A stretch of DNA of 64,000 nucleotides, taken from Enterovibrio baiacu (GTDB lineage Bacteria; Pseudomonadota; Gammaproteobacteria; Enterobacterales; Vibrionaceae). A model generated the notes under the pieces. It was not told the DNA's origin and did no database searches. It saw only the letters and a list, made by a program, of their open reading frames with translations. The DNA is taken from contig NZ_SCHN01000006.1 in assembly GCF_004120195.1 (NCBI RefSeq), forward strand, positions 372,001 through 436,000, given 5' to 3'. Of the stretch, positions 52,980-55,900 are shown piece by piece (position 1 is the stretch's first letter; each line of letters starts with the position of its first letter). The position numbers were made by a program, and so were the translations under genes.

Positions 52980-54365
<1,386 letters not shown>

Positions 54366-54402
54366 GCGATTGTTCTTTCTGCCACAGCGTGCAGAATGAT
54401 TG

Positions 54403-54426
54403 AAGCCCGGTTCTGCCGGGCTTTTT
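54403..54426 (+). terminator. Rho-independent terminator of purB
   Basis: AAGCCCGG-TTCTG-CCGGGCTT followed by TTT. Confidence 0.9.
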
Positions 54427-54456
54427 ATTTCTCTCGCGTCTCTGCATATTCACCAT

Positions 54457-54741
54457 GCTTGGGTATATACCCAATCAACCTTAAGATGCTCGATTTCAGA
54501 GGCCATCAGTGCGTTCAGTTCAAGGCAAATTCTTGTAGGAATAGTCATTCTATTTCACAGAAATTTAACGATGAAGTGGACGCACTGAGGGTCTCCCTTC
54601 GGGCGAGTTTACTGACGCCATGCTCGGTGTTATCCCTTTTTGATGGAGATCACTACATCGGCAAAGGGACGCCTAGATCATAACGTCAGTAAACCTCGCT
54701 GAATCCTGCATCTTCAGGTTGTTTGGGTATATACTTGAGCC
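54457..54741. repeat. 285-bp palindromic repeat element with terminal inverted repeats (MITE-like)
   Basis: The ends are inverted copies of about 40 bases. The left end reads GCTTGGGTATATACCCAATC then AACCTTAAGATGCTCGATTT; the complement of the right end reads GCTCAAGTATATACCCAAAC then AACCTGAAGATGCAGGATTC. Nested internal stems are TCAGTGCGT (54506-54514) with ACGCACTGA (54580-54588) and GTTTACTGACG (54607-54617) with CGTCAGTAAAC (54684-54694). No protein gene is inside. It occupies nearly the whole gap between purB and roxA. Related arms occur at 10015 and 47164. Confidence 0.85.
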
Positions 54742-54766
54742 CATTCTTAGAAAACTGCACTCCCTT

Positions 54767-55900
54767 ATGTATCAGTTAAATTTCGACCTAAATAGCTTCC
54801 TTTCGACGTATTGGCATAAAAAGCCAACCATCATTCGTAACGGTTTCGTTGAGTTTGATGACCCGATCACGCCAGATGAATTGGCGGGACTGGCGATGGA
54901 AGAAGAAATCGATTCACGCTTCGTAACGAACCTCGATGGCAACTGGCAAGCAAAACACGGTCCATTCGAGAATTTCGACGACTTCCCAGACACTCACTCT
55001 CAACTGATCATCCAAGCGGCAAACCACTGGCACCCAGGGTTACGCGAATTGGCAGAACCCTTTCGTGTTCTCCCAAACTGGTTGTTTGATGATGTGATGA
55101 TCTGCCTGTCTATGCCCAATGGCGGCGTAGGCCCGCACATCGACCAATACGATGTGTTCATCATTCAAGGGATGGGTAAACGTCGTTGGCGCGTGGGTGA
55201 TAAAGGCGAATACAAAGACGCTAACCACCACACAGGTTTGCGTCAAATTGAAGGCTTTGATCCGATCATCGATGAAGTGCTAGAACCGGGCGATATTCTG
55301 TATATCCCGCCGGGTTTCCCGCATGAAGGAAACACCATCGATGTGTCGATGAGCTACTCCATTGGCTACCGTTCTCCGAAGAAACTAGAGCTGTTGAGCG
55401 GCTTTGCGGACTACGTGTTGACCAATGAGTTGGGTGATATTCACTACTACGATCCGAACCTGCAAACCCGTGAAGAACACGGCATGATCCCAACCGCTGA
55501 GTTTGATGCGTTGAACAACATGCTGATGAAGCTGTTGAACGACCCGAAAGCGAAATCACGCTGGATGGGCGAGCAACTAAGCCAGTCACGTCATGAGCTG
55601 GACATCATGCCCGCAGAGCCACCATGGGCAGCGGATGAGCTATTCCAATTCATGGAAGAGAGCTTGGTGCTTGAGAAAGTCTCTGGCCTAAAAGCGCTTT
55701 ACCACGAAGACGACCTGTCAGTGATTTTCCTGAACGGCGAATCGATCGAACTGCCTGAAGGTTGTGAAGCTGCGGCGCGCGTGTTGTGTGACCAAGAAGC
55801 CTTTACTGGTGAAGATTTGGGCCCGATCGCCAACAACCCTGCATTACTGGCGTTGTTGCTTGAGCTTTGCAACCAAGGTTATTGGTATCCGCAGGCTTAA
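54767..55900 (+). CDS. roxA: 50S ribosomal protein L16 3-hydroxylase (ribosomal oxygenase)
   Basis: A 377-residue JmjC-type 2-oxoglutarate/Fe(II) oxygenase (YcfD) that hydroxylates an arginine of ribosomal protein L16. Iron ligands are H and D in GPHIDQYDVF and the distal His in IPPGFPHEG. The C-terminal winged-helix dimer region ends LLELCNQGYW. The ATG at 54767 matches the family start (MYQLNFDLNSF). The reading frame stays open 16 codons upstream to a TTG inside the repeat. No good Shine-Dalgarno sequence is visible, and the repeat ends only 25 bases before the ATG, so it may supply the promoter or leader. Confidence 0.95.
   Translation: MYQLNFDLNSFLSTYWHKKPTIIRNGFVEFDDPITPDELAGLAMEEEIDSRFVTNLDGNWQAKHGPFENFDDFPDTHSQLIIQAANHWHPGLRELAEPFRVLPNWLFDDVMICLSMPNGGVGPHIDQYDVFIIQGMGKRRWRVGDKGEYKDANHHTGLRQIEGFDPIIDEVLEPGDILYIPPGFPHEGNTIDVSMSYSIGYRSPKKLELLSGFADYVLTNELGDIHYYDPNLQTREEHGMIPTAEFDALNNMLMKLLNDPKAKSRWMGEQLSQSRHELDIMPAEPPWAADELFQFMEESLVLEKVSGLKALYHEDDLSVIFLNGESIELPEGCEAAARVLCDQEAFTGEDLGPIANNPALLALLLELCNQGYWYPQA

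Follow-up and report, generated by a model that had tools for sequence, protein, structure and literature searches.

A 266-bp IS630-type MITE that probably entered the -10 hexamer of roxA in Enterovibrio baiacu

A palindromic element of 266 bp (positions 54466-54731, tips TATACCCAA...TTGGGTATA, target duplication TA) is situated upstream of roxA in the window, i.e., the entire stretch of 64,000 nucleotides of Enterovibrio baiacu DNA analysed here. The element is very probably a non-autonomous MITE that made use of an IS630/Tc1-type transposase, entered the -10 region of roxA, rebuilt the hexamer, and later decayed in sister species by internal deletions. Direct support is given by its membership in a repeat family, the TA at its ends, empty sites in relatives, its position relative to the hexamer, and shortened forms at the same site. 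The features of the region are as follows.

54402..54424, + strand: terminator-like hairpin after purB (from a scan), still in place upstream of the element
54461..54465, + strand: native GGGTA left of the element and outside it; the unoccupied G013, G007, G008, G010, and G029 read GGGTATATAAT or GGGTATATACT
54466..54731, + strand: MITE of 266 bp, tips TATACCC...GGGTATA, length including the duplicated target TA on either side
54466..54489, + strand: left terminal inverted repeat TATACCCAATCAACCTTAAGATGC, then TCGATTT
54499..54595, no strand: internal hairpin 1 (inverted repeat I2; helices 2 and 3 of the consensus structure)
54607..54694, no strand: internal hairpin 2 (inverted repeat I4; helices 4-7 of the consensus structure)
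54708..54731, - strand: right terminal inverted repeat, reading TATACCCAAACAACCTGAAGATGC on this strand, then AGGATT inward
54730..54735, + strand: putative roxA -10 hexamer TATACT, its first TA being the target duplication
54767..55900, + strand: roxA, 377 aa, start ATG at 54767; nearly all full-length homologues among the matches listed align from residue 1

In the alignment of the full copies of the window's genome, ten in number, copy-to-copy similarity begins at TATACCC and ends at GGGTATA. A sequence-only reading of the window had described a 285-bp palindromic element at 54457-54741, of which the palindromic character holds and the limits have to be narrowed to the 266 bp given above. 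Its inverted ends were estimated at about 40 bases and measure 33 nt (54463-54495 and 54702-54734, 88% complementary), and the two or more internal stems mentioned there correspond to two internal inverted repeats (54499-54522/54572-54595 and 54607-54625/54676-54694). The left terminal inverted repeat, which resembles IS630-type ends, deviates from the family end at 2 of 24 positions, the right one at none of 24. The 12-bp outer palindrome GGGTATATACCC (54461-54472) is composed of element tip in one half and of native DNA, namely the GGGTA to the left, in the other. Indeed, GGGTATATA is present at the position of this palindrome in the unoccupied G013, G007, G008, G010, and G029; it is not found at the corresponding place in the unoccupied G014, G015, and G011, and the sister G006 is devoid of the left-flank GGGTA. 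The possibility that the left flank is the terminus of an earlier element (direct repeat D1) was set aside, since G029, a genome from another genus, carries the near-identical CTTGGGTATATACT without an element. As claimed before, the element carries no gene: no frame of at least 100 codons spans it in the 22 entries considered for the window's genome, where some frames overlap one end. A weaker terminator-like site was predicted by the scan within the element (54613-54632).

The genome-wide search for copies proposed in the sequence-only reading leaves the idea of a repeat family standing, since the nine other full-length copies of the window's genome are 90-98% identical to the copy at roxA. 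In total, at least 59 matching pieces occur in this genome (40 of 73 candidates scored), including shortened forms of 179, 175, 163, 88, 60, 58, 57, and 47 bp with both ends kept; the paired-end examination covered 30 loci among the matches listed. Matches were observed in 17 of the 18 genomes of the genus (one per species, own genome included), and the relatives hold many more copies. No match was obtained in the plasmid and phage collections at E 1e-5. In the first set of elements, 35 of 42 distinct members possess TA at both ends. The genome closest to that of the window is G012 (most probably Enterovibrio norvegicus DSM 15893; RoxA 98% identical). For the full copies L005 and L002 it has both flanks with a gap shorter by 265-267 bp, and in case of L003, the third full copy compared, one flank only was found; judged by gap length, two of the three copies are thus absent from G012. 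The exact join is unreadable at these two empty sites because the flank sequence has diverged. Target duplications and empty sites, which had been named as worth looking for, are thus both present in form of TA at the ends and unoccupied sites in related genomes. Short, non-coding, bounded by terminal inverted repeats, and dispersed in copies with TA duplication and empty sites, the element is a MITE, in line with the miniature non-autonomous mobile repeat suggested beforehand.

Regarding the target, TA adjoins the tip on 20 of 92 sides in the first set (background 5.8%), or on 19 of 84 without repeated sites, since this set of 46 elements held four sites twice, roxA among them. In a fresh set of 88 distinct sites, which remained from 100 fetched (1 without a clear site, 11 repeats of earlier or other sites), this applies to 33 of 176 sides (background 5.7%, P 1.3e-9). 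Enrichment in both sets indicates a TATA-like target. A homing to -10 boxes was hinted at by the first set only, where 6 of 92 sides had -10-like targets with 1.3 expected (5 of 84 without repeated sites), and was not confirmed on the 88 fresh sites, where 5 of 176 were counted against 2.7 expected (P 0.13) and [ACT]T follows the tip-adjoining TA in 5 of 33 cases against a background of 27%. Hence, we retain that TA is favoured beside the tip, and no general -10 homing.

The TATACT at 54730-54735 is located 37 bases before the roxA ATG, and its first TA is supplied by the right tip of the element. A single TATA[AC]T occurs within 100 bp upstream of roxA in 66 of 89 Vibrionaceae sequences (out of 90, one being dropped for N runs), always 33-40 bases before the ATG, and is absent in 23; excluding the six element-occupied sequences, the hexamer is found in 60 of 83. 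The preset position range was passed by 59 of the 89 sequences (shuffle mean 3.2, most 9), and seven more fall just outside it, at 33 bases. Judging from this position, TATACT probably serves as the -10 hexamer of roxA. Without the element and one TA, the window site reads CTTGGGTATATACTTGAG, near to CTTGGGTATATACTGAC of the unoccupied G029, and within the genus, species with and without the element have similar DNA from hexamer to ATG. Therefore, the leader was not replaced, contrary to what had been considered possible: the element sits at the first TA of the hexamer, which is rebuilt, and the true right end is 35 rather than 25 bases away from the ATG (54767). The missing Shine-Dalgarno sequence is a correct observation but an ancestral trait of the genus, with an SD-like 4-mer in 0 of 13 Enterovibrio/Grimontia leaders. 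Likewise, the roxA frame is indeed open into the arm, but this means little, as in the unoccupied G015 and G011 it is open over all 33 codons examined.

An IS630/Tc1-type transposase acting in trans would bind the TATACCC ends of the element and insert it at a TA, which would be duplicated; at roxA this would be the first TA of TATACT. Due to the tip ending in GGGTATA, the hexamer would be rebuilt and the native leader kept, so that the start nucleotide of roxA would most likely be unchanged and the element would lie outside the roxA mRNA. Everything upstream of the -10 would have been changed, the native -35 region now being 266 bp off and the right end of the element taking its place. The element thus apparently entered the roxA promoter without destroying it, and roxA expression may be little changed. 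A selected function at roxA most likely does not exist; we presume a near-neutral insertion in which the hexamer was kept and the upstream part exchanged. A selected insertion that gave rise to the roxA promoter or markedly raised its strength, comparable to the Correia elements of Neisseria, is unlikely. TATACT at the junction and the occupation of this exact TA in two separate lineages would fit such a gain, but the hexamer is already present in unoccupied relatives, the -35/-10 scan of the region revealed neither a consensus promoter nor a consensus -35, and the excess of -10-like targets is not clear in the fresh set.

Further observations concern the surroundings of the gene. A sequence resembling the hairpin after purB was recognised by eye in the other genomes of the genus that were compared, except for G016 and G017. 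In genus g12 (probably Vibrio), a tandem repeat of varying length, built from the 7-base unit CTAGCAT (with CTAGCAA and CTAGCAC as variants), is located directly upstream of roxA (L179, L185, L190, L191, L194, L197-L202, L204, and L210), which could be a variable-number switch. In G004, probably E. coralii (G004:C29:31878-33006), roxA occurs in three pieces with in-frame stops, pointing to either a disrupted gene or a mistake in the draft.

The same TA of roxA is occupied in the window's genome G000 (266 bp), G012 (about 179 bp), G002 (47 bp), and G006 (185 bp), which form one clade (support 100/99), with the empty G013 as its sister, in a tree of roxA alone (18 rows). Eight genomes of the genus are empty at this site (G013, G014, G015, G011, G004, G007, G008, and G010). 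Hence, a conserved element at roxA in all relatives, which the sequence-only reading had considered indicative of a fixed regulatory RNA, is not found. In addition, a 49-bp member occupies this TA in G003 (probably G. celer) and G009, within a Grimontia clade whose remaining members, G007, G008, and G010, lack it. The empty site reconstructed for G003 agrees with the unoccupied G014 site in every position over more than 30 bases. Most simply, the 49-bp relative represents an independent insertion, so that one -10 TA was probably hit twice. A history with two insertions requires fewer events than a single insertion followed by several exact losses, but the tree does not resolve one Grimontia fork; an exchange between lineages may be an alternative to two insertions. 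The unoccupied roxA site of G008 and G010 (L131, L132) reads TACACCCAAGGGTATA, resembles two fused element tips, and may be the scar of an almost complete deletion.

The different lengths within the Enterovibrio clade (266, about 179, 185, and 47 bp) would reflect decay after insertion, by internal deletions that kept both tips. A second case of shortening in place is given by L017 of the window's genome and L078 of G012, which occupy one insertion site, with a length of 47 bp in one of the two species and of 266 bp in the other. Short direct repeats were rejected as a general rule for the shortening, with junction ambiguities of 6, 2, and 0 bases, and the shortened form of G006 is not explained by one deletion alone (51 mismatches).

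Relatives of the Grimontia hollisae (G007) transposase occur in 31 of 150 Vibrionaceae genomes (E <= 1e-20). The scan for tips covered 16 of 30 transposase loci, nine of which (one in Grimontia hollisae) have both tips 1098-1106 bp apart, with one mismatch in a tip of L248; the seven loci without a pair are contig ends and fragments. The transposase of L216 belongs to DDE_3 and reaches 251 bits with NCBIfam transpos_IS630 (cut-off 100). Beyond the 7-bp tip, the 3' ends of all nine IS elements are identical to the right end of the window's element at 17-20 of 23 positions, a likeness matched by 0 of 2000 shuffles for each of them; L246 reaches 20 of 23, and the 3' end of L256 reads TATACCCAATCAACTTGAAGATGCAGAATT. 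Their 5' ends are mostly TGAAGATGCTTGATTT, much like AAGATGCTCGATTT of the window's left end. As far as these alignments tell, ends common to the element and autonomous IS630 of the CCC type are present. In the draft genome of the window (G000, 52 contigs), neither PF13358 nor the transposase query gave any match to an IS630 transposase, and G012 contains merely a transposase fragment (58% identity, one stop) without an exact tip within 3 kb around it. As no such transposase was found in the draft genome, the helper is deduced from the relatives, which do carry a candidate transposon; the mobilising transposase is likely of this kind. The interiors of IS and MITE are no more alike than shuffles (84 of 300 as good), thus an origin of the MITE by simple internal deletion is not supported. 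Many decayed IS630 copies were seen in the small genomes G001 and G005 of the genus (2.1 and 2.6 Mb), of which G005 has 40 MITE matches and G001 none. In G010, fifteen contigs start with one IS630 fragment (bases 8-250), hence this element probably broke the assembly.

The TATACCC/GGGTATA tips are shared with E. coli ERIC, but an assignment of the 266-bp element to ERIC, or to its direct derivatives, is very improbable: compared to the one E. coli sequence used as reference (taken from the available text of PMC2759123), 245 of 300 shuffles are as good as its interior, and with 266 bp and an unlike interior it does not contain the ERIC core of about 127 bp. Due to this unrelated interior we do not file it as ERIC, in spite of the common tips. 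A 127-bp element is located between purB and roxA in both G017 and G016 (L047/L048), where it forms part of a terminator-like hairpin at the loop position. In the G017 copy the ERIC core is present (0 of 300 shuffles reach its likeness); judged by its flanks, this copy is situated within the loop of a GCCTGA...TCAGGC hairpin with a T run behind it, not in the -10.

The 285-base stretch delimited in the sequence-only reading is predicted to fold far better than shuffles (z -13.6 and -11.1 for the two strands, 0 of 200 as good). Across 32 full copies, 97.7% of the cells of the consensus structure are paired, tested on the alignment (A1) from which the structure was derived; this comprises 32 of 34 copies of full-length size, L023 and L087 being left out as too unlike the window copy. 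Double changes that keep pairs amount to 108 cells, as compared to 42 for shuffles and 4-19 for slid versions of the structure. Since about 92 of the 108 are located in seven pairs that separate the Enterovibrio from the Grimontia subfamily, they stand for few independent events. The conserved palindrome is a property of the repeat family, not of the roxA site. Accounting for fold and double changes by a fixed regulatory RNA or leader, transcribed upstream of roxA and controlling it, is extremely improbable: copies whose flanks are unrelated retain the structure, the roxA-site element is shortened to 47-185 bp in sister species and missing from eight genomes of the genus, no Rfam family was found at gathering score in 54300-54900 (six weak matches, E up to 1), and with the hexamer at its right edge the element would lie outside the mRNA.

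For the preferred reading, a MITE mobilised by IS630, it is tempting to speculate that one TATACCC-ended IS630 lineage serves at least two unrelated MITE families of the Vibrionaceae, true ERICs and the 266-bp family, and that the -10 of roxA has repeatedly served as a landing site, albeit we regard this extension as rather unlikely. If true, the GGGTATA tip would let insertions pass unharmed, swapping the -35 side and re-tuning a ribosomal oxygenase gene. Otherwise the finding is mostly ordinary: one more MITE of the IS630-linked type with many copies in Enterovibrio and Grimontia. It offers a clear example of a MITE able to enter a -10 box with the hexamer left intact, bears on the old question of what mobilises ERIC-like repeats, and provides a test system in Enterovibrio/Grimontia, consisting of an IS630 of about 1.1 kb with an open transposase frame and matching MITEs. 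Zo (2011), cited in PMC10969869, reportedly treats ERIC in Gammaproteobacteria and may already describe the 266-bp element. Our literature search, which mostly did not extend to subscription papers, revealed no work tying ERIC to an IS630 transposase in Vibrionaceae and, among the papers listed, none joining Vibrio, IS630, MITE, and ERIC; for a MITE in the roxA promoter none was found either. Concerning Enterovibrio MITEs, the sole match (PMC5756416) is unrelated as far as its available text goes.

Considering known systems, the closest parallels are MITEs of other hosts. Photorhabdus MITEPlu5 and ERIC (MITEEc1) are described in the available text of PMC6267812 as similar to the CCC-type IS630 elements ISPlu3, ISPlu8, and ISPlu19. 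MITEPlu5 has in common with our element the TA target, CCC beside the TA, a strong palindrome, many copies, and IS630-type-like ends, but has 123 bp and is described there as ERIC-related, whereas the window element comprises 266 bp with two internal hairpins and an interior unlike E. coli ERIC. In V. cholerae, the 'RU-1f'-related repeat of VC2263, reported in the accessible portion of PMC2759123 as a multi-copy, intergenic RU-1/ERIC variant, is comparable as a multi-copy intergenic repeat of the Vibrionaceae, VC2263 being represented in this comparison by a translated stretch of 32 aa only. RUP of S. pneumoniae with IS630-Spn1 is likewise a MITE with IS630-resembling ends and TA insertion, but of 107 bp and in another host, and is likened here by its description in the part of PMC2229807 at hand. 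Finally, Neisseria Correia elements, as portrayed in the sections available of PMC10969869 and PMC2229807, are MITEs with TA at their ends and often upstream of genes; in contrast to these elements, which bring their own promoters, the -10 at roxA is probably native and would have been only rebuilt.
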